Positions 7,736 through 30,920 of a stretch of 64,000 nt of DNA are shown piece after piece (the stretch's first letter is position 1; each line of letters begins with the position of its first letter). The stretch is taken from positions 1 to 64,000 of the forward strand of contig NHEC01000019.1 in NCBI GenBank assembly GCA_002171655.1, given 5' to 3'. The translations under genes and the position numbers were made by a program. The notes beneath the pieces were generated by a model, which was given only the letters and a program-made list of their open reading frames with translations, was not told the origin of the DNA and made no database searches. The stretch is from Planctomycetes bacterium TMED75. GTDB lineage: Bacteria; Planctomycetota; Phycisphaerae; Phycisphaerales; SM1A02.

Positions 7736-10700
7736 TCAGCGAACGTAAATGAACTCGTTCGAGGAGAAGAGCACCTGACAGAGCGAGCGGAGCGCGAGAA
7801 GTTCCTGGGGAATTCGATCGGTTTCATCCATTTGAGAAGGCCACTGCACCGAGGAGCCGGTGCTGGAAGAGTGCCGGATCGAATCCAGGTGCGAGAGTGC
7901 GTACTCGAGTTCGAGAGGCTTTGGGGGGCGGGCGAAGCAGGCTTCGTAGGCGCGGACCACCCGCGCGGGGTCGTCGGTGAGTTGTTCATCATCCAGAAGC
8001 TCCCGAGCGAGCTCTTCAGACTGAGAGAGCACCAGCGGACTGTTCATCATGAAGAGTGCCTGCTGGGCGACCACGGTCCGTGGACGATGATCCACGGGCA
8101 CACTGGAATCGGGATAGTCGAAGATCGAGAAAAACGGATACATGTCGTTTCGAATGACCGGAAGATAGATCGACCTTCGGGAAGAGTCGTAGCGCTCGTT
8201 GCTGGCCGACTGGTCGTTGGTCACGTAGGCGAAGTTTCCGGAGTTCATCAACGACCCCCCCACCGAAAGGTCGAGCGATCCACCGACCGCCAGAAGCGCG
8301 TCGCGGACTGGTTCGGCCTCGAGTCGAACGGGATCTCGTCGACTGTAGAGGGCGTTTGCGGGATCCAGTTCCCGAGTAGCAGCGTCGGTCATCGGACCCA
8401 TGCGCCAGGTGGCCGAATCAAGAATGAGGCGGTGCATCGCCTTGGTCGACCAACCACCAGAAACGAACCGACGGGCTAGCCAGTCCAGGAGCAGCGGATG
8501 GGTCGGTTCCGCTCCCCGAGTTCCGAAGTTGCTGGGGTTCGCCGCGATCCCGCGCCCGAAGTGACCCTTCCAGATCCGATTCACCGCGACCCGCGACGTC
8601 AGCGGATTGTTCGGATCGACGATCCAGTTCGCCAGTTGCAGTCGACCACTCGAGTCGCCTGAGATCTCTGGAGGATCGACCGCATGGGCGAGGATCTGGA
8701 GGACCCCTCGCGGTACCACCTGCTCGGAAGGATTGGTGTGCTGACCCCGGATGAAGATCGGCAGGTCGATGGGTTCGTGGTCCTCGACCGCAATGCCCAT
8801 CTCGAATCGATCGGGTGCCCCCGCCTTCAATTCATCACGCTTTTCAGACAATCGACTGATGCGTTGACCCACCGAGGTCGCACGCATCTGCGGACTCGAT
8901 TCATCAATCCAGAAGAGTCCTGGATCACCCAGTAACACTCGACGCATCGCCTCCTGACCGGGGTCGGGCAAGGGTTCAGCACGGTGCTGCTCGATCAGAG
9001 CGTGCCGCTCCCATCCGTCCAGAACCAGTCGGGCCGCGAGCTCCCAACGACGCGCGAATTCGGAGTGGTCGAGGGGAGCCTGACCTTCCACGATCGATCG
9101 AAGAAACAAACGGTCGTCGGGCGACACTCCGGAGTGATCCTCGACCCCATCCGCTTGAACCGAATCCTCGGCGTATTCTGCGGACAACTCCGCCAGAAGT
9201 GGTGCACACTCTTGATCGAAGTCGGCGGAATCCAAACCAGCCACCCTGCGCCATGGCTCGAAGATCGGCTCGGACTCCAGAGCGAACGCCACGCGCTCGA
9301 TGAAGACCGGATCAAGATCCCGTCGGTCGGCGATCTGCTCGATATCGGCATCGAAACGCGCCCAGTCCTCGGGACCGATGAGAAACAGCCGGTCAAGATG
9401 GGGGTAGGCCGTCTCACACTCCAGCCGAATCAGATGCGGACCCGGTTCCAGATCGAAATCAACCATCTCCCAGGCCATTTTGTCTGGAGTGAACGAGCCC
9501 GTGGGCTCCCCGCAGAATTCATCATCGATCAAAGCTCCATCCACGAGCACACGAAGTGGCCGCTCTTCATCGGAGGCATACCGAACTCGAAGTTCGTGTC
9601 GGCCGGACTGAACTGCCTGGTACTCGTATTCCACGAACTGAAGTTCGTCCGGGCGGGAGGTGTGGATGACTCCGACCCCCGAACCCCAGCGATCGAAGTC
9701 GACCCGGAGGTTCGACCGATCGAAGTCCTCCGCTTGCCGGACTTCGGGAATTGATTCAAGGGTGAGGCAGGCAATCATCGCATCTGCGGTTCGGGAGAGC
9801 CAGCGAGTGCGCAGCTCGCGACTTGCCGTGGCCAGCACCTCATCAAGCTCCGCCTGATTGCGCTCGGAGGCCTCACGGTGCAGACGTTCCATTTCGATCT
9901 GCTCGTCCGTGGCCAACGCTCGTTCATGCACTCGCGCAACCGTGTTCAGAGATTCCATCGTCCGGGTGCTGTAGAAAATCCCCGCAAGGGCGTGGTAATC
10001 GGCGGTGGTGATGGGATCGAACTTGTGGTCGTGGCAACGGGCACAACCGATGGTCTGGCCCAGGAATGCCTGACCCAGGACATCCAGCTGCTCGTCGACG
10101 ATGTCGATCTGCATCTTTTCCTTGTCGGGCTCGGCGAGCACCTTCGGCCCGAGGGAGAGAAATCCCGTGGCCAGCAGTCGGGAGGGGCGTGTGGATTGCT
10201 CGGAAGCGTCTTCGAGAAGATCTCCGGCGATCTGTTCGAGTACGAATCGGTCGTAGGGCTTGTCCGCGTTCATCGCCTCCACCACCCAGTCCCGGTAGCG
10301 CCAGGCATTGCCGAATGCGGTGTTTTCATCGAGTCCATTGCTGTCCGCGTACCGCGCCACGTCGAGCCAGTGCCGACCCCAGCGCTCTCCGTACTGTTCG
10401 GATTCCAGCAGCCCATCGACCATGCGGGAGAATGCCGAGTCCGAATGATCGGCAAGGTAGCGGTGCACCGCCTCGGGATCGGGTGGCAGTCCGATCAGAT
10501 CGAAGTAGGCGCGGCGAATGAGAACCCGCTTGTCCGCTTCGGGTGCAGGGGCAAGGCCCGCCTGATCAAGACGGGCGAGGATGAACTGGTCGATCTCATT
10601 GCGACACCAGGCAGGGTCGGAGACGGGAGGTGGCGGTGACGTCGCGATCGGCTGATACGCCCAGTGCTCGCGCTCGCGATCCCAATCGTAGCCCTCGGGG

Positions 10701-13739: not shown

Positions 13740-16133
13740 TCACTGCACCAGTTCGTTGGCCGTGCGCACTCGGACCCGTGCATCACCCAACCACTGACCC
13801 GTGACCTCGATGGACTGTCGCTGCCCCGGAAGCAGAGTGAAGAGTCCAAAGGACTCGTTGACGACCGAGGGCAGTCCGTCGATCAGGATGCACGCATCGC
13901 TCAGGAGTGAACGGGCCGTGAGTTCGATGGCCGTGCGATGACGCCCCTCTCCCTTCACCTCCAGTTCAAACTCCGGTTCAGGCAAGGCGAGCGTACGATC
14001 CTTCTGAAAGAAGTGGTGCACGGCCCGGTCACCAAGATGCGCCACGATCAGTTCCGCGGAAGGATCCTCCGGAATCGCGATGGATGCCGGCAGGTCAATG
14101 TGCAGACGCCCCCTGCGAGGCGGTATCGAAAACTGCTCCTGGCGGGAAGCGAGTACTTTCCCACTGAACGTGACACGCTCCAGATGAACGGTGCCGGCGT
14201 GCTCCCGGTTGGATCCGTTGATCAGTACGAAGCAAAGCGATTCACCCAGTGGTTCCAGGTACATCCCCAGCGGATTGAAGGCCTCGCGTACCGCGTGAAA
14301 CGCAGGCTTGCGTCGGCGTTCGACGTCGACCAATGACCAAGAATGCCCGGTCCAGACATCGTTCAGCTGCCAGATCAAGGCACCTTCGCATCGAGGCTGG
14401 TTGGCCCGGTACCACGAACAGGCCGTGCGCATTGCCCGCGCCTGCAGCAACTGACACGCCCAGATCCAACCGGGCAGGTCGATTGCATCGGTGCGCAGTC
14501 CGAACCAGTCCTCGAGAAAGGGCTCGTACTGGACCTCGTCTCCGCCCCACGCCCGCTGGCGATCTGCGAGATCCGCTGGTTGCAGGGAGTCGATGGATTG
14601 ATCGAACGCCTGCTCGATGGTGGCGGCACACGGTGGAGCCTGGTGCCCGAATTCACTCGCAAAGCGAGGCACCTGGGTTCGAAGTTGCTCGAATTTCAGA
14701 TCCCAGACGTGACGATCACCGGTATCCGGATCATTGGGGTGTTGCTCAAGGGAGCCGGAGAAAGGCGATTCGACCCAGTAAGGACGGGTCGCATCAAGTT
14801 CACAACAGATCTCGGGCAGGAGCCGCGTCCAGTAGTCGATACCGACGGAGAGTTTGGGATCCATTCGTTCCCGCCAGCCCCAGGAATACCAGGCAAGCAG
14901 GTCCTCGTTTCCCCCGCACCAGAGCATGATCGAAGGATGGTGGGCCAAGCGAGCGACCTGGGCTCGGGCCTCCTGCTCCACGAGCATCTTGAACGACTCA
15001 TGTTCAGGATAGGTCGCGCAGGCAAACATGAAATCCTGCCAGACCATGAGCCCCAGTTCATCACAACGCTCGTAGAACCAATCCGGTTCGTAGAGCCCCC
15101 CACCCCACACCCGGATCATGTTCATGTTCGCTTCACACGCATCGGAAAGCAGAGGTGCCACATCCTCGATCGACTGACCGTGTGGAAACAGTCGTGCCGG
15201 AATCCAGTTCGCACCCCGACAGAAGACCGGCTCGCCGTTGATCTCGAGCACGAATCGTCCGTCGGAGTCATGAATCAGTCGAGAAGTACGCAGGCCGGTC
15301 CGGACCTCCGCGGTAGCCCCATTGGCCAGTCGGACCCGAACGGTGATCAGTTTCGGATCCCCGAGATCACGAGGCCACCAGAGCGGTGGATTGCGGATCT
15401 GCAACCGACCCTGGCTCGGGCCATCCACCGCCGTCAGTTCGCGCCCCGAATCATCGATCAACTGAATGGAGTGTTCGACTGAATCCCCATCGAGATCGAC
15501 ATCGATCGAGACCTCGGCCTCATTCGGATCGGCGCGGTGGCAATGCAGGCGTATTCCGGCGATTCGGGTGCCACTGAAACATTCGAGCCTGACATCACCC
15601 GCCAAGCCGCAGGTCGGACAGCAGGGTCCCCAGTCCCAGCCGAAGTTGCAGGCGCTCTTGCGCATCTGAGAGAAAGGGCCCCATGCGCCATCCGCATTCA
15701 CTGGACGAGTCCCGTGGATCGTTTCGAGCCGCTTGGCTTCATCAAGTGTGCCCCGAAGCCTGACCACCAGATGATTGGCACCGGGGCGAAGGGCCTGACG
15801 AACCTCGAGACGGTGCGGGGTGAACTGGGAGTTCAGCTGCGCCAGGACCTGTCCGTTGAGTTCCACGGTTCCGGTGGTGTCGACGGAATCAAGACAGAGT
15901 TCCAGGCGCTCACATTCGAAGAGCTCTGATTCGACTTCGAATTCCGTGCACCACACCCAGTCGGCATGACCCACGAAGGCCTGGGCGGATTCGCCACCGA
16001 TCGCATCGGGATCGGGAATCAATCCGGCGTTGAGCAGGGCATCGTGCACGCAACCGGGAACCTGTGCCGGAACCGGTGCATGCTCGATGGATTCGACCGT
16101 CCAGTTCGAACCGGCAAGAGAGATCGTTTTCAT
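13740..16133 (-). CDS. Beta-mannosidase, glycoside hydrolase family 2
   Basis: A 797-residue GH2 enzyme without an obvious signal peptide, so probably cytoplasmic. The N-terminal ~270 residues form the jelly-roll and Ig-like domains. The TIM barrel begins near residue 300 (VFCRGANWIPA) and contains MIRVWGGGLYEPDWFYE and MVWQDFMFACATYP. The predicted acid/base Glu is in WCGGNED (~residue 410) and the nucleophile Glu in ASEFGHQ (~495). These motifs separate beta-mannosidases from beta-galactosidases of the same family. It removes terminal beta-mannose from manno-oligosaccharides. The start codon overlaps the stop of the upstream symporter (ATGA), so transport and hydrolysis are likely coupled. 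Confidence 0.93.
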   Translation of the reverse strand: MKTISLAGSNWTVESIEHAPVPAQVPGCVHDALLNAGLIPDPDAIGGESAQAFVGHADWVWCTEFEVESELFECERLELCLDSVDTTGTVELNGQVLAQLNSQFTPHRLEVRQALRPGANHLVVRLRGTLDEAKRLETIHGTRPVNADGAWGPFSQMRKSACNFGWDWGPCCPTCGLAGDVRLECFSGTRIAGIRLHCHRADPNEAEVSIDVDLDGDSVEHSIQLIDDSGRELTAVDGPSQGRLQIRNPPLWWPRDLGDPKLITVRVRLANGATAEVRTGLRTSRLIHDSDGRFVLEINGEPVFCRGANWIPARLFPHGQSIEDVAPLLSDACEANMNMIRVWGGGLYEPDWFYERCDELGLMVWQDFMFACATYPEHESFKMLVEQEARAQVARLAHHPSIMLWCGGNEDLLAWYSWGWRERMDPKLSVGIDYWTRLLPEICCELDATRPYWVESPFSGSLEQHPNDPDTGDRHVWDLKFEQLRTQVPRFASEFGHQAPPCAATIEQAFDQSIDSLQPADLADRQRAWGGDEVQYEPFLEDWFGLRTDAIDLPGWIWACQLLQARAMRTACSWYRANQPRCEGALIWQLNDVWTGHSWSLVDVERRRKPAFHAVREAFNPLGMYLEPLGESLCFVLINGSNREHAGTVHLERVTFSGKVLASRQEQFSIPPRRGRLHIDLPASIAIPEDPSAELIVAHLGDRAVHHFFQKDRTLALPEPEFELEVKGEGRHRTAIELTARSLLSDACILIDGLPSVVNESFGLFTLLPGQRQSIEVTGQWLGDARVRVRTANELVQ

Positions 16134-18382
16134 TCGACCCGCCCATCGTCGGTCTCATCGGCGACGAACGCGGCCAGACGACGATACATCCGGCGCAGAT
16201 CTCTGAAGCCTCCGATGGTGAACCAGACCGTGACCACGCTCGCCACGGCAAACGCGAAGTAGGTCCACCAGTGCCAGTACCCTGCCCACCATGTTCGATC
16301 CAGTCCGTAGCGCACCGCATAGAAGGTGACTCCGATGAAGACGAGGGTGAAGAGAAAGGGCCAGAGCAAGGTGATCGTGGTGGCGATCCGGTCCCACCGA
16401 GTCATCTGGGAGTCGAAGCCGAGTCGCTCGATCCAGGTTCCACGCTGAACCGTGAGGACCTGTTCATCACTGATCGCATGCGCTCCACGGTGGAGCAGCT
16501 TGTCCATGTCGTGGGGGGCACCGCCCCGTGCCCAACCGATCAAAGAGACCGAGATGTAGAGCAGGACGGCAATCAGGATCGACCAGAACGTGAGGACCTG
16601 GCCGGTCATTTCGTTGCGAACGTAGGCCAGTGGGGCAAGCAGTGCCGAGGCATTCGAAGGAGGCTCGACCCTGATCCGGTACGGGGTCTGGTCGGGCAGG
16701 GTTCCAGTCGCGACGCCAGTCGAAGACAGGGAGTGGGACGCGAACACCGAACGGTCCGCTCCCCACGCCAGATCGATCGCCGCCTGTGCCGACGCTTCCC
16801 CGTCGGCAGCGACCACCAACTCGTGTTGCACGGCGAATGGAACCTCTTCAGCCTCCATCCACTCCGGTGGTTTGCCGGAAACGCTCAGGGGTGCTTGAAT
16901 CGTGTGATCCCCATGCTCGACCACCAGCACGGGTCCGGGGTGCACGGTGAGTGGATCAAGTTGCTTGAGAACGATACCACCACCGGAAAGAAGCATGCCC
17001 GCGACCATCGCGCTCCAGGCTGCCGCGGTAGTCCCCCGCTTCCAGTAGAGCCCGCCGATGATCGCACTTCCCGCACCTCCCACGAAGACCGCACCGGTCA
17101 ACGCCAGGAACATCGCGATGTACTGGTTGGGCTCGTAGAGCATGCTGAAGATGAAGGCGAAGATCGCGACCCCGAAGATCGAACACTTCAGAAGAATCAG
17201 ATGAGCCCGCTGGGAAAGCGGAGTCTTTCGGAAGGGCAGAACCACGTCCTGAATGAAGATCGAACCCCAGGAATGCAGGTAACTGTCATTGGTGGAGATG
17301 AAGGCACCGAGCATCGCCGCGGCGAAGAAGCCCAGAAGTCCGGCAGGAAGCAGCTGTGCGGCGGCAGCCGGAGCCCGGACCTCCGCCTGCAACGCCGCGG
17401 TGGGTTGTCCTGCGACGTAGGTCTCGATCAATTCAGCCTGGACGCCGTACTCGGGGTTGGTCATCACCACCCTGATTGCAACCGGAAGCACCAGAGTGAT
17501 CAGCATCAGGACTCGAAAGCGCCAGCCGTTGAAGATGTTGGCCATCTTCGCCTCGTGCGCGTTGAGCGCGGCCGCCCGGTACCCGCCCTCACCCTGCCAG
17601 CTCATCATTCCGTAGAAGAGGACGATCACTGTGATCACCCAGTACCAGATGTTGAAGTTCTCCTCACGACCGAGGTCGAGTGGATCCACCAGTGACTTGC
17701 CTTCCGGAGCCGCCAGCAGCGCGGTCTCGATCTGGCTCCAGGGGATCAGCCAGAGCAGGTAGCCGATGACGACGAGGAAGACGATGTTGGCGAAGGATCC
17801 CTGAAGGAAGTCGGTGACGATGACCGCGACCTGCCCTCCGAGAAAGACGAAGAGCAACGCGATCCCGAGCATGAAACCCATCAGGAGCGGGAAGGTGCTG
17901 ACTGCGGTGTCGCCGAACATGAGTGCATCGGGAAGTCCGCAGAGCGCGATGAAGAATCGAGCGGCGACTGCCGGAAAGATTCCGTAGTTGATGATGCCGC
18001 TGAGAAAGGCGACCACGCCCGCGAACACTCGAAAGCGTCGGCTGTAGCGCATCTCGAAGAACTGCGGAAGCGTCATCGCCCGAGTCTGTCGATAGCGGTA
18101 GATCACCCAGCCCGAAAGAGCGATGACGATCATCGCCGGACCTTCCATCAGACCCCACCAGATCGAGGTGTAGGCGACGTCGTAGTTCTGCTGCCAGTAC
18201 CAGACCAGGGAGATCACCCCGAGCTGGGCCATGCCGTAGGCGACGGCTATCAGGTACCGACCCGCACACCGATTGGCCGCCAGGAATCCGGAGACGGAGC
18301 CGGCGTAAGGGCGGGTGAACAGCGCCACCACGAACAAGGCGAGGGGGAATCCAAGGAGAATGATCCAGTCGATCAAGTGCAT
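16130..18382 (-). CDS. Sodium:solute symporter (SSS family) with large inserted domain
   Basis: A 750-residue sodium/solute symporter, longer than the ~500-600 usual for the family. The N-terminal ~450 residues hold about a dozen hydrophobic helices with SSS-type stretches (SGFLAANRCAGRYLIAVAYG, STNDSYLHSWGSIFIQDVV, GAVFVGGAGSAIIGGLYWKRG). Residues ~460-590 are a hydrophilic, beta-rich insert with no membrane segment, followed by further helices. The insert is probably extracytoplasmic. The gene overlaps the beta-mannosidase start by four bases, so the cargo is likely a mannose-containing sugar; this is inferred from context. The ATG is 125 bases from the divergent metal-export locus. Confidence 0.9.
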   Translation of the reverse strand: MHLIDWIILLGFPLALFVVALFTRPYAGSVSGFLAANRCAGRYLIAVAYGMAQLGVISLVWYWQQNYDVAYTSIWWGLMEGPAMIVIALSGWVIYRYRQTRAMTLPQFFEMRYSRRFRVFAGVVAFLSGIINYGIFPAVAARFFIALCGLPDALMFGDTAVSTFPLLMGFMLGIALLFVFLGGQVAVIVTDFLQGSFANIVFLVVIGYLLWLIPWSQIETALLAAPEGKSLVDPLDLGREENFNIWYWVITVIVLFYGMMSWQGEGGYRAAALNAHEAKMANIFNGWRFRVLMLITLVLPVAIRVVMTNPEYGVQAELIETYVAGQPTAALQAEVRAPAAAAQLLPAGLLGFFAAAMLGAFISTNDSYLHSWGSIFIQDVVLPFRKTPLSQRAHLILLKCSIFGVAIFAFIFSMLYEPNQYIAMFLALTGAVFVGGAGSAIIGGLYWKRGTTAAAWSAMVAGMLLSGGGIVLKQLDPLTVHPGPVLVVEHGDHTIQAPLSVSGKPPEWMEAEEVPFAVQHELVVAADGEASAQAAIDLAWGADRSVFASHSLSSTGVATGTLPDQTPYRIRVEPPSNASALLAPLAYVRNEMTGQVLTFWSILIAVLLYISVSLIGWARGGAPHDMDKLLHRGAHAISDEQVLTVQRGTWIERLGFDSQMTRWDRIATTITLLWPFLFTLVFIGVTFYAVRYGLDRTWWAGYWHWWTYFAFAVASVVTVWFTIGGFRDLRRMYRRLAAFVADETDDGRVE

Positions 18383-18506: not shown

Positions 18507-18905
18507 ATGCATCTTCCCCACCAAATCATCACGATCCTGGTCATCTGCTGGATCCCGTTCTGTTGCTGTTCGATCAAGGCGATGGCCTCGATGGCAGGGG
18601 GCGGGGACATGATCCAGACAAGTTGTTGCAGTCAATTGGGTTGTGATGGTTCGAAGACGGATTCGCAAGAGGCTCCCGGAGACCACCGTCGCTGCGCAGG
18701 ATGCTGCGAACGATTTGCGCCGAACGACACTGTCCAAGAATCCCTGCCAGGCATTGATGAAATCGGTGTGGACCTCTTGGTCTGCCCGACACCCCCCCGC
18801 CCCGAACTGAAACCTGATTGGATGGGCTTCCTTCGAAACGAAGCCCGACCACCGGATCCACCGCTCGGCGCCCTGCTGGCCCTCTGCTGCCAGCTTCAGG
18901 TCTGA
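18507..18905 (+). CDS. Small Cys-rich exported protein heading the efflux operon
   Basis: With the ATG at 18507 the product is about 132 residues. It starts with a hydrophobic export signal ending in cysteines (ITILVICWIPFCCCS) and continues with closely spaced Cys (TSCCSQLGCDG, CAGCCERF). It ends in LGALLALCCQLQV. Short Cys-rich proteins of this type, often ending in a similar hydrophobic Cys-containing tail, occur at the front of heavy-metal efflux operons in planctomycetes; this is from memory of such loci, not a search. A role in metal capture or sensing in the periplasm is inferred. It is 80 bases upstream of the TolC gene on the same strand. The case for it being real rests on position, signal and Cys pattern. 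Confidence 0.6.
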   Translation: MHLPHQIITILVICWIPFCCCSIKAMASMAGGGDMIQTSCCSQLGCDGSKTDSQEAPGDHRRCAGCCERFAPNDTVQESLPGIDEIGVDLLVCPTPPRPELKPDWMGFLRNEARPPDPPLGALLALCCQLQV

Positions 18906-18984
18906 ACGCACTCACCGAACACTCCGTACGCTGTACGTCAACACAGCGAGGACTGTCTGGTGGGCGTATTTGAAAGACCAATTT

Positions 18985-20400
18985 ATGAGCATAAATAAAA
19001 TCATTCGTCATCTGATGACAACAATCTGGCTGTCAGTCCTACTCCTTCTTCTGGCAGGCTGCTATACCGCCAATCCCCAGTCGGATTTCGACCAAACCGC
19101 ATTGCTTGCGGAGGATCGCACCGGTGCATCCGTATCCCTCAAGGATGCGTGGTCGACTTCTTTCGAAGAGCGCAGCGAGGCGTGGGACGGCATCGAACCT
19201 CTGAAACTGGAGCCAGCGATCGTCGTTGCACTCACCAACGACCCCGAGCTGAGGAGGCAACTCTCACTGGTGGCTCGCAAGCGGGCGGAGCTGGCGCAGG
19301 CATCGCTTCCGCCCAACCCCAGGGTGGTCTTCCAGTTCGGCGCCCCCCTGGACGCCGCGGGTGGGTCGCCCGGGATGGTTCAGCTGCTTCAGCAGCTCAC
19401 GTGGCTCTGGACCATGGGGGATCGGATAGACCGACAAGACGAGCAGCTGCAGGCGATGATCCTGGATGCGGCGAGAACTACAGTGACCCGCGCGGCCGAG
19501 GTGCGGGTTGCCTACACGGAAGCGGCCTACTTCCGCGACATCATTGAGTTGCGAAGGGCTTTCGTGGCGACGACCCGAAGAACGCTGGATCTGGTCAGCG
19601 CCCTGGTCGAAGCCGGCGAGGTACCGGAGGTCAATCAGGAACGCGCACGCATCGAACATTACGTTGCCGAGGCCGCACTGGCCATGAGCATGCGCCAGCT
19701 GCGAGGGCACAAACTGCAGCTGCTCCGTCTGATGGGGTGGCCGGGGCACGGGACCGGCTGGGACCTGGCGAGCCCGCTGATGCAAGGGCCCGTCGAAGGC
19801 ATGCCGACCGAAAGCCAGATCGTGCGGCGCGCGCTCGAGGTCCGGCTGGACATCGCCGCCACTGAACGAATGATCAGGGCCGCAGAGGCGGAGCTCAGGC
19901 TTGCTGGATTCACCAGGATCCCACAGGTCGAGTATCGAATCAGCTGGAACCGGAACTTCGGAGACCGACCGGGACTCTTCAACGGAAGTGCCGTCACGCT
20001 TCCGATCGTCGACACCGGATATGCACACATCGCGGACGCCATGGCGCAGCTTGAAACCGCGAATCTCGATGCAGCAATTCTCCGTCAGAACGTCATTCTG
20101 GAGACACGAAGCGCACTCAATTCATGGTTCCAGGCCGAGGAACAGCTGCAGCTCTTTGATGAGACCCTGGTCCTGGAATCAGAGCGCGTGGTGGAAAGTT
20201 CCGAATTGGAGTTCAAGGCGGGCTCGGTCGATTCCACCGAACTGCTGCTCACCCAGCAGCAGATGATCGAGCAACAACTTGAGATGCTTCAACACATGCG
20301 GCAATCCGCACTGGCCTGGATCGGTCTGGAGACGGCGGTGGGCGGCTCCTTCGAGATACCGCTCGAGAAACCTGAAGTTGAGGTGGAGACAAGATCATGA
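18985..20400 (+). CDS. TolC-family outer-membrane efflux lipoprotein
   Basis: The ATG at 18985 (MSINK) gives 471 residues; the track start is a TTG five codons upstream. A lipoprotein signal ends in LLLAGCY. Two long heptad-rich helical segments follow (AIVVALTNDPELRRQLSLVARKRAELAQASLPPNPR and a paralogous second half with SELEFKAGSVDSTELLLTQQQ). This is the OEP/TolC duplication that makes the periplasmic tunnel and outer-membrane barrel. The half ending in ALEVRLDIAATERMIRAAEAELRLAG matches CusC/CzcC-type subunits. The stop overlaps the ATG of the adaptor gene (ATGA), so the two are translationally coupled. Confidence 0.92.
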   Translation: MSINKIIRHLMTTIWLSVLLLLLAGCYTANPQSDFDQTALLAEDRTGASVSLKDAWSTSFEERSEAWDGIEPLKLEPAIVVALTNDPELRRQLSLVARKRAELAQASLPPNPRVVFQFGAPLDAAGGSPGMVQLLQQLTWLWTMGDRIDRQDEQLQAMILDAARTTVTRAAEVRVAYTEAAYFRDIIELRRAFVATTRRTLDLVSALVEAGEVPEVNQERARIEHYVAEAALAMSMRQLRGHKLQLLRLMGWPGHGTGWDLASPLMQGPVEGMPTESQIVRRALEVRLDIAATERMIRAAEAELRLAGFTRIPQVEYRISWNRNFGDRPGLFNGSAVTLPIVDTGYAHIADAMAQLETANLDAAILRQNVILETRSALNSWFQAEEQLQLFDETLVLESERVVESSELEFKAGSVDSTELLLTQQQMIEQQLEMLQHMRQSALAWIGLETAVGGSFEIPLEKPEVEVETRS

Positions 20401-21950
20401 GCGAATCAAGTTCACTCAAGGACCTCGCACCGGACGCCTTGAACCGCATTCCGACGCCGGCTGCACGCTGGTTCTCCAGATTTGCCCTTCCATTGGGAAT
20501 AGTCTGCGTTTGCCTGCTCCTGCTCCTGGCCATGAGTTGGAGCGCGCTTGCACCAAGGAAGAGCGTCCAGGTTCAGACCGCGGTGGTCCGGCCGGTTCAA
20601 GCGGTCACGGTTTCAGAACAATCGTTTGACGAAGGCGCCGTGATCCAGGCGCCGGGTTGGGTTGAACCTGATCCAAATCCACTCTTTGTCTCTGCGCTGA
20701 CCGAGGGAATCGTGGAGACGGTGATTCCCCTTGAAGGTGAGCGGGTTGAAGTGGGCGACACCATCGCCATGCTGGTGGATGAAGACGCCAGACTTCTGGT
20801 CCAGAAGGCAAAGGCGCAATTCGACTTTGCCGAGGCAAACCTTGCCATAGCGCAATCCTCCGCAAAGGCTGCCGCCACCGAGCGCAGGGAACTCATCGAA
20901 CCAACTCGCCGACTTGCTCTGGCGAACGCGAGCCTTCAGGAGATCAAAGCCGTACGAAGTGAACAGATCGCGACCATGCGAAGTGCGGAACTGGAGCGAG
21001 ATCAGCTTCAAGATGAACTCAAGCGGAAGGAACCACTGATCAGTGAGGGAGCGGTGGCCGAAGCGGTCGTGGTCCGAATGCGCATGAAAGTTGATGCAAG
21101 CAAGGCACGGATCAACAGTCTCAAGGAACAGATGAAAGGCACCGATGCGCGGGTGACTGCGGCAGAAGCGGAGTTGATCGCCTCTGAACGAGACTTCGAG
21201 CTCCTGGTCCATGAAACACTGGAGATCGAAAAAGCAACCGGTGAACTGCTGCGCGCAGAGGCAGATGTCGCCATTGCATCCGCTGAACTCGATACCGCAC
21301 GACTCAAACTCATGCGATGCAAGGTGCGTTCACCAGTCGCCGGAGTGGTCATTCAGAGGCTGAGCGGACCGGGCTCCACAATCAACTACGGAAACGGAAC
21401 CCACGGGGCACACCTGATTCATCTCTATGATCCAGAGAACCTTCAAGTTCGAGCGGATATTCCGCTTGGTGTGGCCGCCGGGGTCGGAGTTGGACAGGCC
21501 GCAGAAATCGTGGTCGACCTGCTTCCGGACCAGATCTTCACCGGAGAGGTCACACGATTCCTGCACAAGGCGGACATCCAGAAGAACACCGTGGAAGCCA
21601 AGGTCAGAATCCACGATCCCTCCCCTTTGCTCAAGCCGGAGATGCTGGCGCGAGTCAGAATTCTTCCGGTGCGAAACATAGAGACCGGTGAAACCGAGCG
21701 AACCGTCCAACGTGTCTTCGTACCCCGCGATGCAATCGTGGGAACCGAAAGCGAACCGGAAGTCTGGGTGGTCGATGCCTTGCAGTCCGGACAGGGAACT
21801 GCGGACCGGCTGCCCGTCACGCTCGGTGCTTCAGAAGAATCGGGGTGGATCGAACTTGTCGATGGAGTCCTTCCGGGAACCAAGGTGATTCTCAACGGAG
21901 AGGGCCTGAACCAGGGCGATTCCGTCAGCATCAAAAGAGGTGATGTGTGA
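20397..21950 (+). CDS. HlyD/MacA-family periplasmic adaptor
   Basis: A 517-residue membrane-fusion protein. An N-terminal membrane anchor (residues ~26-46, LPLGIVCVCLLLLLAMS) precedes a split lipoyl domain (VETVIPLEGERVEVGDTIAML ... CKVRSPVAGVVIQRL). These flank a ~200-residue coiled coil rich in Ala, Glu and Arg. Beta-barrel and membrane-proximal segments follow (LQVRADIPLGVAAGVGVGQAAEIVVDLLP, LLKPEMLARVRILPV). It would link the ABC transporter in the inner membrane to TolC. The long coiled coil suits a TolC-docking hairpin. It is coupled to its neighbours by ATGA-type overlaps. Confidence 0.92.
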   Translation: MSESSSLKDLAPDALNRIPTPAARWFSRFALPLGIVCVCLLLLLAMSWSALAPRKSVQVQTAVVRPVQAVTVSEQSFDEGAVIQAPGWVEPDPNPLFVSALTEGIVETVIPLEGERVEVGDTIAMLVDEDARLLVQKAKAQFDFAEANLAIAQSSAKAAATERRELIEPTRRLALANASLQEIKAVRSEQIATMRSAELERDQLQDELKRKEPLISEGAVAEAVVVRMRMKVDASKARINSLKEQMKGTDARVTAAEAELIASERDFELLVHETLEIEKATGELLRAEADVAIASAELDTARLKLMRCKVRSPVAGVVIQRLSGPGSTINYGNGTHGAHLIHLYDPENLQVRADIPLGVAAGVGVGQAAEIVVDLLPDQIFTGEVTRFLHKADIQKNTVEAKVRIHDPSPLLKPEMLARVRILPVRNIETGETERTVQRVFVPRDAIVGTESEPEVWVVDALQSGQGTADRLPVTLGASEESGWIELVDGVLPGTKVILNGEGLNQGDSVSIKRGDV

Positions 21951-21951
21951 A

Positions 21952-22641
21952 ATGTCATTGATCGAATGCCGAAAATTGACTCGGGTGTACCAAAGTGGCG
22001 TGGAAGAGATCAAACCACTTGATGGTGTCGATCTCGCCATTGAAAAAGGACAGTTTGTCGCACTCATGGGCCCCTCGGGATCCGGCAAGACGACTCTCCT
22101 GAATCTGCTTGCGGGCATTGACCGGCCGACGTCGGGCGAACTCATCATTGATCAACAGTCGATTGGCCAGCTCTCGCGAAACAAACTGGCGACCTGGCGA
22201 TCGGAACACGTCGGGTACGTCTTTCAGTTGTACAACCTGGTACCCGTGTTGACCGCATACGAGAACGTGGAACTTCCCCTTCTGCTCAAGCCACTCACCC
22301 CAAAAGAACGACACGAGCGAGTCGCCGCAGCCCTGGAAGTGGTGGGAATTGCTGACCGGCATCTGCACTACCCGAGACAACTTTCAGGTGGCCAGGAGCA
22401 GCGAGTCGCGATTGCGCGTGCCATTGTGACCGAACCCACCCTGTTGCTTGCCGACGAACCCACCGGGGACCTCGACAAGTCCTCGGCGATCGCGGTCATG
22501 GAACTGCTCAGGCTGCTCAATGAAAAGCATGGTCGAACCATTGTGATGGTGACCCACGACATCAAGACCGCCGAGTATGCGGACCTTCTGCTGAATCTCG
22601 AAAAGGGAAAACTGATCGAAGGTGAAGGAGCCCCAACATGA
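21952..22641 (+). CDS. ABC transporter ATP-binding protein (MacB/LolD type)
   Basis: A 229-residue ATPase with Walker A GPSGSGKTT, Q-loop (YVFQLYNLVPVLTAYENVELPLLL), signature LSGGQEQRVAIARA, Walker B LLLADEPTGDLD and H-loop MVTHD. The sequence belongs to the MacB/LolD/FtsE group that pairs with FtsX-type permeases. The true start is uncertain between 21943 and 21952; GAGG at 21937 is better spaced for 21952 (MSLIEC). The last codon overlaps the first permease start. Confidence 0.95.
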   Translation: MSLIECRKLTRVYQSGVEEIKPLDGVDLAIEKGQFVALMGPSGSGKTTLLNLLAGIDRPTSGELIIDQQSIGQLSRNKLATWRSEHVGYVFQLYNLVPVLTAYENVELPLLLKPLTPKERHERVAAALEVVGIADRHLHYPRQLSGGQEQRVAIARAIVTEPTLLLADEPTGDLDKSSAIAVMELLRLLNEKHGRTIVMVTHDIKTAEYADLLLNLEKGKLIEGEGAPT

Positions 22642-23798
22642 AAACGATGTTACGAACGATTCCAATCGTCCTGAAGCAGATCAGACGCAGTCCGATCCGA
22701 TCGGGCCTCACCGTTGGCGGTATCGCCATAGCGATGTTTCTCTTCTGCTTCGTGGAGGCAATGCGGGACGGAGTCAGCAACGCCACCACCGCCTCCGCGG
22801 AAGACGCCACGCTGATCGTCTACCGCCAGAACCGCTACTGCCCTTTCTCAAGCAAACTGCCCCAGTACTACGGGGATCGGATCGAGAAGATCGAGGGTGT
22901 CACGAGTGCGGTGCCAGTCCAGATCACCGTCACCAACTGCAGAGCGTCGCTGGATGTGGTGACGTTCCGCGGGGTCCCGCGTGACGAGCTGGTCGACGTG
23001 CTCGAACCCGGATGGACGATCGCAAATGGGTCGATCAGTGACTGGAAGAAACGAGGAGATGGCGCACTGATCGGAGAATCCCTCGCGGCCCGACGCGGCG
23101 TCAGGGTGGGTGACCGATTCAGCGCTGCGGGCCTGACCGTCTACGTTGCGGGGATCATCGAGTCGGAAGCCCCACAGGATCGCAACGTCAGCTACGTGCA
23201 CCTCCCGTTTCTTCAGGAGAGCATGCGGACCGGTGGCACCGGAGGGTCCGTCACTCAATTCATGGTCAAAGTCAACAACCCGTTGGTGATGGATGAAGTG
23301 GCTCGAACCATCGATGGTGAATTCAGATTTGAATCGCACCCCACCTCCACGAGTTCGGAGAAGGCGTTCGTAGGAAGAGCCGCCCGGGACATCATCGAGA
23401 TCGTGGGCTTTGCGACCTGGCTTGGCTGGAGTGCGCTGGTCACGGTCTTCGCACTGGTGGCCAATGCAATCGTACTTGCGATGCGCGATCGGATTCGTGA
23501 CCACGCCGTCCTCCAGACCCTGGGATTCACCGGTGGACTGATCGGATTCATGGTGGTCTTTGAAGGTGCGGTTCTCGGCATACTGGGAGGTGGGATCGGG
23601 GCACTGGCCGCTTGGAGCGTTGCGCGCATCGGCCATTTCAGCATGACGATGGAAGGACTCAACGTAGAGATCTCTTCGAGCCCCTTGCTGCTGTTGATCG
23701 GGATCTCACTTTCACTGGCATTGGGCATTCTCGCCGGAATCGTCCCCGCCTGGCGCGTCTCACGGCGTGAGATCGCTCACTCGTTCAGGACGGTCTGA
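22638..23798 (+). CDS. ABC transporter permease, FtsX/MacB type (first)
   Basis: A 386-residue permease with the MacB layout: one N-terminal helix (~residues 18-36, GLTVGGIAIAMFLFCFVEAM), a ~200-residue periplasmic MacB-PCD-like domain (VPVQITVTNCRASLDVVTFRGV, GALIGESLAARRGVRVGDRF), then three C-terminal helices (ALVTVFALVANAIVLAMRDRI, LIGFMVVFEGAVLGILGGGI, LLLLIGISLSLALGILAGIVPAWRVSRRE). It is translationally coupled to the ATPase (ATGA). Together with the next gene it should form a heterodimeric membrane domain. Confidence 0.92.
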   Translation: MKTMLRTIPIVLKQIRRSPIRSGLTVGGIAIAMFLFCFVEAMRDGVSNATTASAEDATLIVYRQNRYCPFSSKLPQYYGDRIEKIEGVTSAVPVQITVTNCRASLDVVTFRGVPRDELVDVLEPGWTIANGSISDWKKRGDGALIGESLAARRGVRVGDRFSAAGLTVYVAGIIESEAPQDRNVSYVHLPFLQESMRTGGTGGSVTQFMVKVNNPLVMDEVARTIDGEFRFESHPTSTSSEKAFVGRAARDIIEIVGFATWLGWSALVTVFALVANAIVLAMRDRIRDHAVLQTLGFTGGLIGFMVVFEGAVLGILGGGIGALAAWSVARIGHFSMTMEGLNVEISSSPLLLLIGISLSLALGILAGIVPAWRVSRREIAHSFRTV

Positions 23799-23807
23799 CA
23801 GATACTC

Positions 23808-24986
23808 ATGAAGCTTCTGCCGATCAGCTACGCCACACGAAATCTGGGAAGAAGCCCGGGTCGCATGTGCCTTTCCATTGGCGGAAGCATGCTGGTGGTC
23901 CTGTTGGTGCTCGCATCCGCCGGTTTCGTCACCGGCATGCAGAAGTCGATAGTCTCGAGTGGAAATCCTCGGAACATGATTCTGATGGCGGCAGGTTCGA
24001 TAGAAAGTATCGAGCGAAGTGAAGTTGCCATGCAGACCTCGGGAATCCTGGCCGCAAGTGTCAGTGGACTGCGCGAAGTTGGTGGCGTCGAGGCAATCTC
24101 ACCGGAAATCCACCTTGCGATACCGGTTTCAAAGGTCGAACCGACGAACGAAGAGAACACTGGAGACCTCATGGTCTTTCGCGGGGTGACTCCCGCAGCA
24201 TGGTTGGTCCACGAGGATGCACAGCTTGAATTCGGCCGACTTCCGGAACCTGGTCGAGAAGAGATCATTCTTGGGAGAATGGCCGCTCGCTCACTTGGGT
24301 ACGAACCGGCCGAAACAGCGATAGGACACCGACTGTGGATCGGTGTCGAACCAGTGGAAGTGGTCGGGATCCTCTCCGGATCGGGCAGTGTCATCGAGGG
24401 TGAGGCATGGATCGACCTCGCCAACCTCCAGGTGATCGCCCAGAGGGATTCACTTTCATGCGTGGTGCTCACCAGAAACGAGGCGACACCCGCTTCCATC
24501 GATAGCTTCGCAGTTCGCCGGCTCGATCTGGAACTGGTCGCGATTGAAGAAACCGACTATTACGCATCACTGGCCGGATTCTTCCGTCCAATTCAGTGGA
24601 TGGTGATCATCACCGCGATCCTCATTGCCTTTGGTGGCATCGTTGGTGGCCTGAACACAACCTATGCCGCCTTTGCGAGCAGGGTGCGAGAACTCGGCAC
24701 ACTGCAGACGCTCGGATATTCGCGTCCGGCCATCATGGTCAGCCTGGTTCAGGAATCACTGCTTGCGAGTGCCGTGGGAGCACTGATCGCATGCGGTGTC
24801 GGGCTGCTGCTCATCGATGGAATCGCCATCAGGTTCTCGCTCGGGGTCTTCGGCATCGAGATCGATACCCTGGTGCTCGCCGCCGCGCTCACAACCGGGC
24901 TGGTGCTGGGCGTGCTGGGTGCGATCATTCCCGCCTGGCGCTGCCTGAGACTCCCCATTCCAGAGGCACTTCGGACCAGTATTTGA
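23808..24986 (+). CDS. ABC transporter permease, FtsX/MacB type (second)
   Basis: A 392-residue paralogue of the preceding permease with the same four-helix layout: an N-terminal helix (GGSMLVVLLVLASAGFVTGM), a periplasmic domain (VMVFRGVTPAAWL-type, REEIILGRMAARSLG) and a C-terminal helix trio ending IIPAWRCLRLPIPEALRTS. It starts nine bases after the first permease stops. Two different permease genes with one ATPase imply a heterodimer, unlike the MacB fusion in which ATPase and permease are one chain. Confidence 0.92.
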   Translation: MKLLPISYATRNLGRSPGRMCLSIGGSMLVVLLVLASAGFVTGMQKSIVSSGNPRNMILMAAGSIESIERSEVAMQTSGILAASVSGLREVGGVEAISPEIHLAIPVSKVEPTNEENTGDLMVFRGVTPAAWLVHEDAQLEFGRLPEPGREEIILGRMAARSLGYEPAETAIGHRLWIGVEPVEVVGILSGSGSVIEGEAWIDLANLQVIAQRDSLSCVVLTRNEATPASIDSFAVRRLDLELVAIEETDYYASLAGFFRPIQWMVIITAILIAFGGIVGGLNTTYAAFASRVRELGTLQTLGYSRPAIMVSLVQESLLASAVGALIACGVGLLLIDGIAIRFSLGVFGIEIDTLVLAAALTTGLVLGVLGAIIPAWRCLRLPIPEALRTSI

Positions 24987-25070: not shown

Positions 25071-25685
25071 ATGCAATACACCTTCTTGACCGGCATTGGG
25101 ATTTCACTTTTCATCGGAGCTCTGGCAGTGCCCGGCGGATGCGGCCGGTCCGATGAGACAATCCAGGACTTGAAGACTGCCGACGTGGTCATTCCCGCTT
25201 CGACCTTCGTCAATGTACGGCCTGAGGGGTCGGTGATGCTGGCGGACATCAAGGCGAGTGGGAACGTTGGTGACAAGGTGGTCGTCGAAGCGAGGGTGGG
25301 CGGTCGGGCGACACCATTCGTCGATGGCAGTGCGATGTTCATCGCCGCGGATCCAAGACTTGTCTCGTGCGACCAGCGACCCGGGGACCACTGCAAGATT
25401 CCCTACGACTACTGCTGCGAAGACCCCGCAGCCATGAAGGCAGGCACCGCGACCATTCAGTTGGTGGATTCCAATGGCATTCCCTATCCGGTTGGGGCCA
25501 GAGGTCAGGGTGGGATCGAACCCCTGAAGACGGTCGTCATCTCCGGAGTGATCTCGGAAAAGAACGAACAAGGCATCATGGTCATCGATGGAAGTACGAT
25601 CTGGGTTGGAACCATTCCGGCCTCCCCCCCCGGCGAACACGACCACCACGACCACCACCACGACCACGACCACAGCCATGAATGA
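25071..25685 (+). CDS. His-tailed lipoprotein with OB-fold-like domain
   Basis: A 204-residue lipoprotein (signal ending AVPGGC, Cys ~residue 24). The middle resembles small OB-fold or beta-barrel domains (GNVGDKVVVEARVGGRATPFVDG, VVISGVISEKNEQGIMVIDG). It has four conserved-looking Cys between residues 101 and 125 (SCDQRPGDHCKIPYDYCCEDP). The last ~16 residues are a His/Asp tract (EHDHHDHHHDHDHSHE) of the kind that binds Zn, Ni or Cu. It sits 85 bases downstream of the second permease and closes the export gene set; a periplasmic metal-binding role is inferred. The stop overlaps the xylulokinase start (ATGA). Confidence 0.8.
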   Translation: MQYTFLTGIGISLFIGALAVPGGCGRSDETIQDLKTADVVIPASTFVNVRPEGSVMLADIKASGNVGDKVVVEARVGGRATPFVDGSAMFIAADPRLVSCDQRPGDHCKIPYDYCCEDPAAMKAGTATIQLVDSNGIPYPVGARGQGGIEPLKTVVISGVISEKNEQGIMVIDGSTIWVGTIPASPPGEHDHHDHHHDHDHSHE

Positions 25686-27223
25686 TTCACGTGACTGACC
25701 GACCACTCATTCTTGCGATCGATATCGGCACCTCGGGCACCAAGGTGCTGGCGGTGGATGCCCTGGGCCAGGTACGGCACTCGGCTCATGCGAGCTATTC
25801 ATTCGAGTCACCTCAACCGAGTTGGGCGGAACAATCGCCTCAGCTCTGGTACGACGGCACTCTGAATGCGGTGCAGTCGCTGCTTTCAAACCCCGAAATT
25901 CAAGCAGACGACGTGGTGGCGATCGCCCTTGCGGGTCAGATGCACGGCCTGGTGGCGCTGGACGCGCACCTGGAAGTCATTCGCCCCGCACTGCTCTGGA
26001 ACGACCAGCGAAGCGCCCCGCAGTGCGAGCAGTACGCGAATCAACTGGGCAATGAGTTCCTCCTCGAGCACACCGGCAATCTGATGCTCCCGGGGTTCAC
26101 GGTTCCGAAGCTGCTGTGGATGAGAACACACGAGCCCGAAGCCTACGCCGCAATCAGGCATGTCCTGCTTCCCAAGGACTACGTGCGCTTCAAGCTGGGC
26201 GGCAATTTGATTTCGGATGTGACCGATGCCTCAGGCACTGGCGTCTTTGACTGTGGCCGTAGACGATGGTCGAAGGCGATGTTGGAGGCACTGGACCTCC
26301 CGCCCGAGTGGTGGCCACCAACGGCGGAAAGCCTGGAAGTGGTCGACCAATTGAGTCCTTCGGCAGCGAAGGAGATCGGGCTGCGGGCTGGGATCCCCCT
26401 CATCGCGGGCGCCGGCGACCAGGCGGCCAGTGCGGTCGGAACCGGCATCATCAAGGAAGGGCTGGTCTCGACCACCATTGGAACCTCGGGCGTGGTCTTC
26501 GCATGCAGTGACCACTGGCGCACGACTCAAGACGGCGCGCTGCATGCATTCTGCCACGCAGTCCCCGACACCTGGCACCTGATGGGTGTGATGCTGAGTG
26601 CCGGCGGCAGCTACGACTGGTTCTGCCGCAGCCTCATGCCCGACATCATGGACCAGGCGCAGGCGAATGGGATCGACCCCTTCGAGGAGATCACCGAGCG
26701 AGCGGGCGGTGTGCAACCGGGGGCTGATGGATTGTTCTTCCTTCCCTACCTGACCGGAGAACGCACCCCCCACGCAGATCCCCGGGCACGAGGTTGCTTC
26801 ATCGGCCTGACGCCCGCCCACGACCGCAACCATCTTGCTCGCGCAGTCATCGAGGGAGCGCTGTTCGGCCTGCAGGACTGCCTGCAGCTGATCCGTCGCC
26901 TGGGCATCCAACCGGATTCGATCCGACTTTCCGGGGGAGCCGCCGCAAGTGAACTCTGGCAATCACTGAGTGCGGACGTGATGGGTGCCCCGATCGTCTC
27001 GACCACCACCAGTGAGGGAACGGGCTACGGAGCAGCCATTCTGGGCGGGACTGCAGTGGGACTCTGGCCGGATGTTCCCCAGGCGTGCGAACAGCTGGTA
27101 CGGGAAAGACGCCGGACAATGCCTTCGGAAGACCAGGTCGTCTACGCGAGACTCCACGAGCGATACGCTCAGCTCTATCCGATACTCAAGGAGTGGTGGC
27201 ACGAGACCAAGCCGCTACCCTGA
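25682..27223 (+). CDS. xylB: Xylulokinase
   Basis: A 513-residue FGGY-family sugar kinase. The N-terminal ATP-binding motif is IDIGTSGTKVLAVD. Xylulokinase-type features are AGQMHGLVALD, LWNDQRSAPQCE, KDYVRFKLGG, DASGTGVFD, AGAGDQAASAVGTGI, IGTSGVVFA, LPYLTGERTPHADPRARG and LSGGAAASELWQ. It phosphorylates D-xylulose to xylulose-5-phosphate, which enters the pentose phosphate pathway. No xylose isomerase or transporter lies nearby. The ATG overlaps the upstream stop; a GTG three codons in is an alternative. Its place at the end of an export operon may be simple co-transcription. Confidence 0.93.
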   Translation: MIHVTDRPLILAIDIGTSGTKVLAVDALGQVRHSAHASYSFESPQPSWAEQSPQLWYDGTLNAVQSLLSNPEIQADDVVAIALAGQMHGLVALDAHLEVIRPALLWNDQRSAPQCEQYANQLGNEFLLEHTGNLMLPGFTVPKLLWMRTHEPEAYAAIRHVLLPKDYVRFKLGGNLISDVTDASGTGVFDCGRRRWSKAMLEALDLPPEWWPPTAESLEVVDQLSPSAAKEIGLRAGIPLIAGAGDQAASAVGTGIIKEGLVSTTIGTSGVVFACSDHWRTTQDGALHAFCHAVPDTWHLMGVMLSAGGSYDWFCRSLMPDIMDQAQANGIDPFEEITERAGGVQPGADGLFFLPYLTGERTPHADPRARGCFIGLTPAHDRNHLARAVIEGALFGLQDCLQLIRRLGIQPDSIRLSGGAAASELWQSLSADVMGAPIVSTTTSEGTGYGAAILGGTAVGLWPDVPQACEQLVRERRRTMPSEDQVVYARLHERYAQLYPILKEWWHETKPLP

Positions 27224-27227
27224 TGCC

Positions 27228-27413
27228 ATGATTCTTGCAATTGCGACCACCCTCTCGATGCTGGCCATTGGCTACCTGGTCTGGAAGACGATCCAGATAC
27301 AGGAATCGAAGGACGATACGTTCGAAGAGAAACTGCGTGCAGATGAGGAACGTGCGAGGCAGGGCCGAGAGGCTGAAGCCCAGGCGCACGCGAACCGCGA
27401 CAAGACTCGGTGA
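27228..27413 (+). CDS. Small membrane protein with charged tail, 61 aa
   Basis: This ORF appears in the track only as the tail of a longer shadow frame. It opens at the ATG at 27228, four bases after xylB ends. It has one hydrophobic helix (ILAIATTLSMLAIGYLVW) and a strongly charged, helical cytoplasmic tail (EEKLRADEERARQGREAEAQA). It stops two bases before the convergent amidase gene ends. It is plausible as a real gene because it fills the gap exactly and has a clean membrane topology. The function is unknown. Confidence 0.5.
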   Translation: MILAIATTLSMLAIGYLVWKTIQIQESKDDTFEEKLRADEERARQGREAEAQAHANRDKTR

Positions 27414-27414
27414 A

Positions 27415-28155
27415 TCAGACGAATCGACGGTCCGCGCGGCTGGAATTGACGGCATCCTGCAGGTGCCGACCAGGGCACAGGGTGCTGGCCAGCTCCCGAT
27501 GCGTGCGAACCCGACTGGTGGGAACCCGATACTTGTTGCGCAAATTGACCACCAGAATTTCGAGTCCGCGCACCTGATCGCGTGAAGGCCGCTGTTGTTC
27601 GAAATTGCCCAGGCAAAGGATCCCGATGTTCCGTTCGTTCTGATTCTTGACGTGTGCACCTTGGTAGGTGATGGGACGTGCCTCCCAAACTCGGCCGGCA
27701 CGGTCGACCACGAAGTGGTAGCCGATGTCGCCCCAGCGATTGCCGCCATCCCGATTGAGGTGGGCACGCCTGATCAATTCGATGCGTGCGGCCACTTCGG
27801 ACTGGCGAGTACCGCTGAAAGGTGGCATGCCGTCATGGTGGATGGTGATCCGGTTCGGAGTGCCCATGGGATTGATGCGGCTGGGAATCGGAGCCCCTTT
27901 GGCCCAGTAACTGCGTGCCAGAGTGCCGGAAGGAGCGGCTTCGGGGAGGGTTGCAGGTGCTGGGACGGGGGTTCCGGAGGACGCTCGACTCGGATCGGAG
28001 GGCCAGGATGGCTGCGGAAGACGGGTGGTGGATCGTGGCGCCGCACAACCTGCCAGAGCTCCGAGTCCGGCCAGAAGAAGCAAGCGTCGGGTCAGACCGC
28101 GACCACCGGGAGCAGAATCACCGGAGAGCTGCCTGGGATCTTGATTCTGGTCCAC
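27415..28155 (-). CDS. N-acetylmuramoyl-L-alanine amidase / PGRP-type hydrolase
   Basis: The track start is a GTG at 28164 that lies inside the AGGAGG; the in-frame GTG at 28155 has correct eight-base spacing and gives 246 residues. An N-terminal lipoprotein/Tat-like signal is visible (TRRLLLLAGLGALAGC). The Amidase_2 domain covers residues ~95-240: Zn ligands in ITIHHDG, THREL and TLCPG, plus GDIGYHFVVDRAGRVWEAR. The enzyme should cut the bond between MurNAc and L-Ala in peptidoglycan from the periplasmic side. Planctomycetes have a thin peptidoglycan wall, so a remodelling or recycling role fits. Confidence 0.88.
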   Translation of the reverse strand: MDQNQDPRQLSGDSAPGGRGLTRRLLLLAGLGALAGCAAPRSTTRLPQPSWPSDPSRASSGTPVPAPATLPEAAPSGTLARSYWAKGAPIPSRINPMGTPNRITIHHDGMPPFSGTRQSEVAARIELIRRAHLNRDGGNRWGDIGYHFVVDRAGRVWEARPITYQGAHVKNQNERNIGILCLGNFEQQRPSRDQVRGLEILVVNLRNKYRVPTSRVRTHRELASTLCPGRHLQDAVNSSRADRRFV

Positions 28156-28350
28156 CGTGACCACCTCCTGGGCTCGTGATTTCGACGTTTCCGTGTCGAT
28201 TTGCGGGGCTCGCTGGTCCGTAGATCATCGACTCCTACTGGACGCCAGCTCCAGTATATACGCGCGGACCGGAGGATCCCTTCGGCGAGTTTCAAATCAA
28301 AATGAGATCCGACATCGAAGCGTCTGAATTCCCACTTATTCCGGTGTTTT

Positions 28351-30920
<2,570 letters not shown>

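Follow-up and report, generated by a model that had tools for sequence, protein, structure and literature searches.

The nearest known kind of system to the one described here is represented by PA4063-PA4066 and ZrgABCDE, in which a split MacB-type transporter is accompanied by a His-rich metal protein and an OB-fold protein (PMC11481552, PMC8561739, PMC9820375). ZrgABCDE is held to import zinc and supports growth in low zinc (PMC9820375), while PA4063-PA4066 is held to export pyochelin-cobalt and its OB-fold pump partner, PA4066, displays no evident zinc binding (PMC11481552). The substrates known for MacB-type pumps are peptides, antibiotics, siderophores or chelates and not bare ions (PMC5985334). 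Among other type VII ABC transporters, dedicated periplasmic partners occur in FtsEX-EnvC, LolCDE-LolA and YbbAP-TesA (PMC12646458). Two further precedents are CusF, which hands metal to the adaptor CusB of CusCBA (PMC8277102), and the CruR/CutF leaders, where the copper sensor is a CXXC/CXXXC motif and a ribosome-arrest element is provided by a Pro motif ~45 residues further on (PMC9426467, PMC9973294).

The locus analysed here lies in a window of 64,000 nt from Planctomycetes bacterium TMED75 (contig NHEC01000019.1, positions 1 to 64,000), to which all unprefixed coordinates refer. It resembles PA4063-PA4066/ZrgABCDE in having a split MacB-type ATPase and permease, a predicted periplasmic OB-fold partner, a His-rich metal element and a metal theme, but the planctomycete operon adds an adaptor, an outer-membrane channel, a leader and a Cys pair in a permease; moreover, in the window the His element is part of the OB protein itself, whereas ZrgA is a separate protein. 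With MacAB-TolC and PvdRT-OpmQ it shares the adaptor, the MacB-type ABC transporter and the TolC-type channel; here, however, the ATPase and each of two different permeases have a gene of their own, and an OB lipoprotein is dedicated to the pump.

An unnamed family with four cysteines

The open reading frame at 25071..25685 (+ strand) is real, starts with ATG and encodes a predicted OB-like lipoprotein of 204 aa, which we call LIPO and which is recognised by a family profile (A1) built from 39 sequences. Its cysteines are at positions 24, 100, 108, 115 and 116. C24 is the predicted lipid-modified residue, in an imperfect lipobox (VPGG-C24, with Pro at -3); many orthologues have clean lipoboxes (TAGC, IAGC, LLGC) and some have none. 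LIPO is likely a periplasmic lipoprotein, usually lipid-anchored, in agreement with a preliminary description made from the letters of this DNA.

The other four cysteines form the cluster CDQRPGDHCKIPYDYCC (residues 100-116; 25368..25418, + strand). In alignment A1, C108, P111, D113 and C115 are invariant and C116 is conserved in >90% of sequences. The family hallmark, C-x(4-20)-C-x2-PWDYCC, is present in 72 of the 79 proteins found with the family profile, far above chance level; of the seven exceptions, five are distant paralogues, one has ambiguous letters in its sequence and one has a shortened spacer. The cluster reported previously is thus real and family-wide, although it begins at residue 100 and not 101. 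The four cysteines may bind metal; being periplasmic, they could instead form two disulfides.

Single-sequence and profile searches matched the LIPO core to no Pfam or NCBIfam family and to no PDB sequence, bearing out the earlier statement that no named family has this combination. Borderline Pfam matches to PapC_C and DUF5818 (the latter in one member) were judged chance or fold-level. CusF (PF11604) had no match in Pfam scans of the family and none in the window's genome. DUF3299 (PF11736) was likewise rejected: 0/39 members matched it, it was absent from the window genome, and hhalign against planctomycete DUF3299 gave a probability of 0.7% (P 0.086), even though LIPO has the DUF3299 trait of lying beside a MacB-type permease at 71/74 loci. 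Planctomycete DUF3299 proteins (L153-L182), which carry a CCFG motif, themselves have a MacB-type permease within 1.5 kb at 23 loci, pointing to a second, separate OB-plus-MacB system in Planctomycetota.

In whole-genome searches, 38 of 61 close genomes had a LIPO relative, as did 91 of 294 genomes sampled throughout Planctomycetota; a genome-collection scan added one further planctomycete member, and plasmid and viral-contig collections contained none. LIPO therefore founds an unnamed family represented in roughly one sampled Planctomycetota genome in three. Some members have other architectures: the domain is repeated in tandem within one protein in L056, L060, L063, L064 and L071, with a CC...C variant of the cluster in the first copy, and fusion proteins join it to a redoxin (AhpC-TSA) domain (L048:4713-5897, one genome) or to phosphatase-like and cytochrome c' domains (L050:636-2171, a second genome).

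Predicted fold of the core

Two AlphaFold models, each made from two-sequence input, reached pLDDT 48.7 and 56.9. The former gave no usable structure match, while the latter (pTM 0.58) had an OB-like strand order, and its top Foldseek matches were nearly all OB folds, with E values of 0.02-0.2: RPA14/32, YgiW (probability 0.99, TM 0.64 on target), PA4066 (DUF3299; 4hsp, the second match), CcmE, SSB and PriB. The pattern of the family alignment is also OB-like. The OB-like domain proposed earlier is therefore plausible at the level of models of this confidence, and the core is likely an OB fold.

LIPO would then be comparable to CusF, also a small OB-fold protein of the periplasm whose gene accompanies those of a tripartite pump. 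LIPO differs in having four Cys in place of the CusF site, which consists of Met, His and Trp, and in accompanying an ABC rather than an RND pump. LIPO appears analogous to CusF and PA4066/ZrgE while being, by profile, a member of neither family.

LIPO is a near-constant partner of a tripartite ABC pump

In the window a complete MacB-type tripartite set, comprising MacB_PCD plus FtsX permeases, a LolD/MacB ATPase, an adaptor and a TolC-type channel, is encoded in one operon on the + strand together with LIPO. The TolC-type outer-membrane channel (18985..20400; PF02321, 3.5e-32) is best started at the in-frame ATG at 18985 rather than at the listed TTG at 18970. It is followed by the periplasmic adaptor, or membrane fusion protein (20397..21950; TIGR01730 above cut-off, PF16576 CusB/HlyD), by an ABC ATPase of the LolD/MacB type (21940..22641; PF00005, 5e-37, with LolD, MacB and DevA models among the best), and by two MacB-type (FtsX) permeases, permease 1 (22638..23798; PF12704, PF02687) and permease 2 (23808..24986; PF02687 and PF12704 above cut-off). 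Next to the operon lie a divergent sodium:solute symporter gene (16130-18382, - strand) on one side and xylulokinase-like and gyrase-B-like genes (25682-30920, + strand) on the other; this synteny is conserved in the window's genus and some family members and has no obvious metal link.

A same-strand permease adjoins the LIPO gene at 71/74 loci (all non-paralogue loci). At the 39 loci first examined, LIPO occurs with MacB/FtsX permeases, with the ABC ATPase and adaptor also present unless a contig end cuts the locus, and often with a TolC-type channel. The gene order is leader-channel-adaptor-ATPase-permease1-permease2-LIPO or is permuted, as in one clade with permease2-LIPO-adaptor-ATPase-permease1. 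LIPO is thus a near-constant partner of a MacB-type tripartite ABC pump across Planctomycetota.

Permease 1 has a periplasmic Cys pair of its own, Cys68 (22839-22841, + strand) and Cys101 (22938-22940, + strand), both invariant and lying in the motifs RYCPxxSxLP and NCRASLD at 71/71 loci. These motifs were not seen in the permeases beside planctomycete DUF3299 genes, many of whose sequences are partial.

A Cys-rich leader and an RNA stem precede the pump genes

The operon opens with a gene for a secreted Cys-rich leader of 132 aa (18507..18905, + strand), in which Cys clusters are followed, after about 50 residues, by a C-terminal PP motif. Behind it lies a predicted RNA stem (18899..18979, + strand; -44.8 kcal/mol, z -3.7) that includes the leader stop codon and ends 5 nt before the channel ATG; Rfam has no match at this stem. 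In most family operons such a leader precedes the channel or adaptor gene or, where the order is permuted, permease 2. A motif filter picked a leader in 50 of 69 operons, of which three were discarded as spurious, and the set analysed, with the window's leader included, numbered 48. Of these, 46 have a hydrophobic N terminus and 40 have PP near the C terminus, typically 43-57 residues past the Cys cluster. RNA structure with z below -2 follows the leader stop in 26/48 cases, as compared with 6/131 control positions behind other genes of the same operons (p 1.6e-12).

This layout is that of the CutF/CruR/CzcI leaders, which likewise combine a Sec-type signal, a Cys motif, ~45-50 residues and a C-terminal Pro motif, in the first gene of a metal operon with an RNA stem before the next gene (PMC9973294, PMC9426467). 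The planctomycete leaders differ from them in lacking a PF11162 match and in having many more Cys, and those of the window's lineage have about 13-19 residues after the PP motif. The window's leader and three relatives matched no Pfam family, PF11162 included, and none of the PF11162 matches listed in genome searches falls at a leader position; since the leaders are not DUF2946 by profile, their resemblance to CutF/CruR is one of layout and not of membership. By analogy with these systems, expression of the operon is probably metal-controlled by the Cys-rich leader. In G288, the contig that carries a P1B ATPase and a LIPO paralogue also has two DUF2946 genes above cut-off (C8:42947-43318 and 58596-58877), which shows that true DUF2946 leaders exist in Planctomycetota.

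The His/Asp tail is recurrent but optional

The His/Asp-rich tail that had been pointed out at the C terminus of LIPO is present (EHDHHDHHHDHDHSHE, residues 189-204; 25635..25682, + strand): the last 16 residues hold nine of the protein's 10 His, plus four Asp. The DNA encoding it is a CAC/GAC-rich tandem repeat, which means that tail length can drift by slippage, and repeat slippage may be what drives His-tract length. A His tract, defined as at least 5 His in 20 residues, occurs in 11/80 family members, at the C or the N terminus. Such tracts are enriched relative to the 919 predicted genes neighbouring family members in the fetched loci, where there are 27 (p 9e-5), and on the family tree they require six changes, at least five of them forced by well-supported branches. 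This recurrence rules out the tail as a pure one-genome artefact, and the tract is best described as recurrent and enriched but optional.

The preliminary description had proposed two separate metal sites on one lipoprotein. Its metal theme is backed by operon context in several lineages (see below), but the two sites are unequal: the four cysteines define the family, whereas the tail is accessory and absent from most members. The combination named there as counting against its idea, a core assigned to a non-metal role and a tail found in the window's genome alone, is not what we found.

Paralogues and neighbouring metal genes

The five distant paralogues, tied to the LIPO family by hhalign (98.5%), have HDPSTCPFC in place of the four-Cys cluster. 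They adjoin a small His-rich lipoprotein in 5/5 loci (L114:7687-8786, L121:7787-8880, L127:7849-8875, L140:7717-8756 and L141 around 8576-9990), none of which has a MacB operon; ZigA, ZIP, ArsP-type or MerC genes are nearby in L121 and L140.

Metal-resistance genes share the gene run of LIPO itself in a minority of loci. Zn/Cd-class P1B ATPases are in the same run in L060, L063, L064, L115 and L125 (TIGR01512 above cut-off where scanned); in L125 they are followed by a CzcA/CusA-type RND pump together with its adaptor and channel, and L115 also has an HMA protein. The first gene is a MerR-family regulator in L128 and, in L129, an ArsR/SmtB metalloregulator above cut-off with an ELCVCDL motif. 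A P1B gene lies within ~8 kb of a family gene in at least 7 of 80 family-bearing genomes, those listed including G018, G047, G054, G329, G082, G153 and, with a paralogue, G288. With about three P1B genes per genome, roughly one linked case would be expected by chance. Four of the linked genomes belong to one clade carrying tandem LIPO, so that independent cases number about four, and over 90% of the genomes searched, i.e. most operons, have no P1B gene next door.

Proposed function and alternatives

Most probably, the LIPO family has a role in metal handling. The reading that we somewhat favour is that LIPO is an OB-fold, metal-handling protein of the periplasm dedicated to a tripartite ABC efflux pump of the MacB type (type VII). 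Under this proposal its four invariant Cys would deal with a soft or borderline metal (Zn/Cd/Pb or Cu), either as the free ion or as a chelate. LIPO would deliver this cargo, or control its access, to the adaptor and to permease 1, whose periplasmic domain has its own Cys pair, and the pump would expel it by way of the outer-membrane channel. In members that have it, the His/Asp tail may act as an extra low-affinity, high-capacity metal buffer, and the leader, in a CutF/CruR-like manner, may couple nascent-chain metal sensing to the RNA stem over the start of the next gene. To our knowledge there is no established ABC-driven (MacB-type) exporter of bare metal that spans both membranes. A more ambitious version, that of a phylum-wide tripartite ABC system which exports soft metal ions by passing them from the four Cys of LIPO to the permease Cys pair, under an independent planctomycete class of leader that senses metal through its nascent chain, we hold only tentatively, as a possibility that may well prove wrong.

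The strongest alternative, in our opinion unlikely though worth serious attention, is that the pump's substrate is a metallophore, a metal chelate or a small peptide, and that LIPO is a substrate receptor or structural partner with disulfides, involved with metal only indirectly. MacB-type pumps of known substrate do transport molecules of this sort, as seen for PvdRT (pyoverdine), PA4064/65 (pyochelin-cobalt) and MacAB (STII) (PMC5985334, PMC11481552), the PA4066 precedent argues for an OB-fold partner that need not bind zinc (PMC11481552), and a periplasmic location favours disulfides. On the other hand, apart from the Cys-rich leader the operons share no recurrent gene for biosynthesis or for a secreted peptide, and the neighbours that do recur are ion-resistance genes.

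That LIPO instead delivers zinc towards import, as part of zinc supply under limitation similar to that by ZrgABCDE/PA4063-PA4066, seems improbable. ZrgABCDE does pair a MacB-like permease with His-rich and OB-fold proteins and support low-zinc growth (PMC9820375), and a family paralogue lies near ZIP and ZigA genes in L121, but the adaptor and outer-membrane channel genes point to efflux, and the neighbouring P1B ATPases, RND pump and MerR/ArsR regulators are of efflux type.

Less probable still is a thiol-redox role, in which the four Cys and the permease pair would form a disulfide relay for envelope protein quality control: the vicinal CC motif and the redoxin (L048) and cytochrome c' (L050) fusions could point to redox chemistry and against metal efflux, but there are two such fusions only, the HDPSTCPFC motif beside a His-rich lipoprotein in the paralogues is better read as a metal site, and the nearby regulators are metal sensors.

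Implications

As an unnamed, phylum-wide family of pump partners, LIPO and its relatives amount to a larger finding than the preliminary description had it, and they give a likely job, and a family ready to be named, to a conserved operon of about a third of the sampled Planctomycetota genomes. LIPO would be a second, apparently unrelated, OB-fold partner of a MacB-type pump beside ZrgE/PA4066, and could as such help to settle what these pumps carry; the permease Cys pair and the four-Cys cluster are direct targets for mutation. If the leader works as its layout suggests, then nascent-chain metal sensing of the CutF type, so far seen mainly in Pseudomonadota, would also exist in a distant phylum, where it would be carried by a protein family different from CutF.
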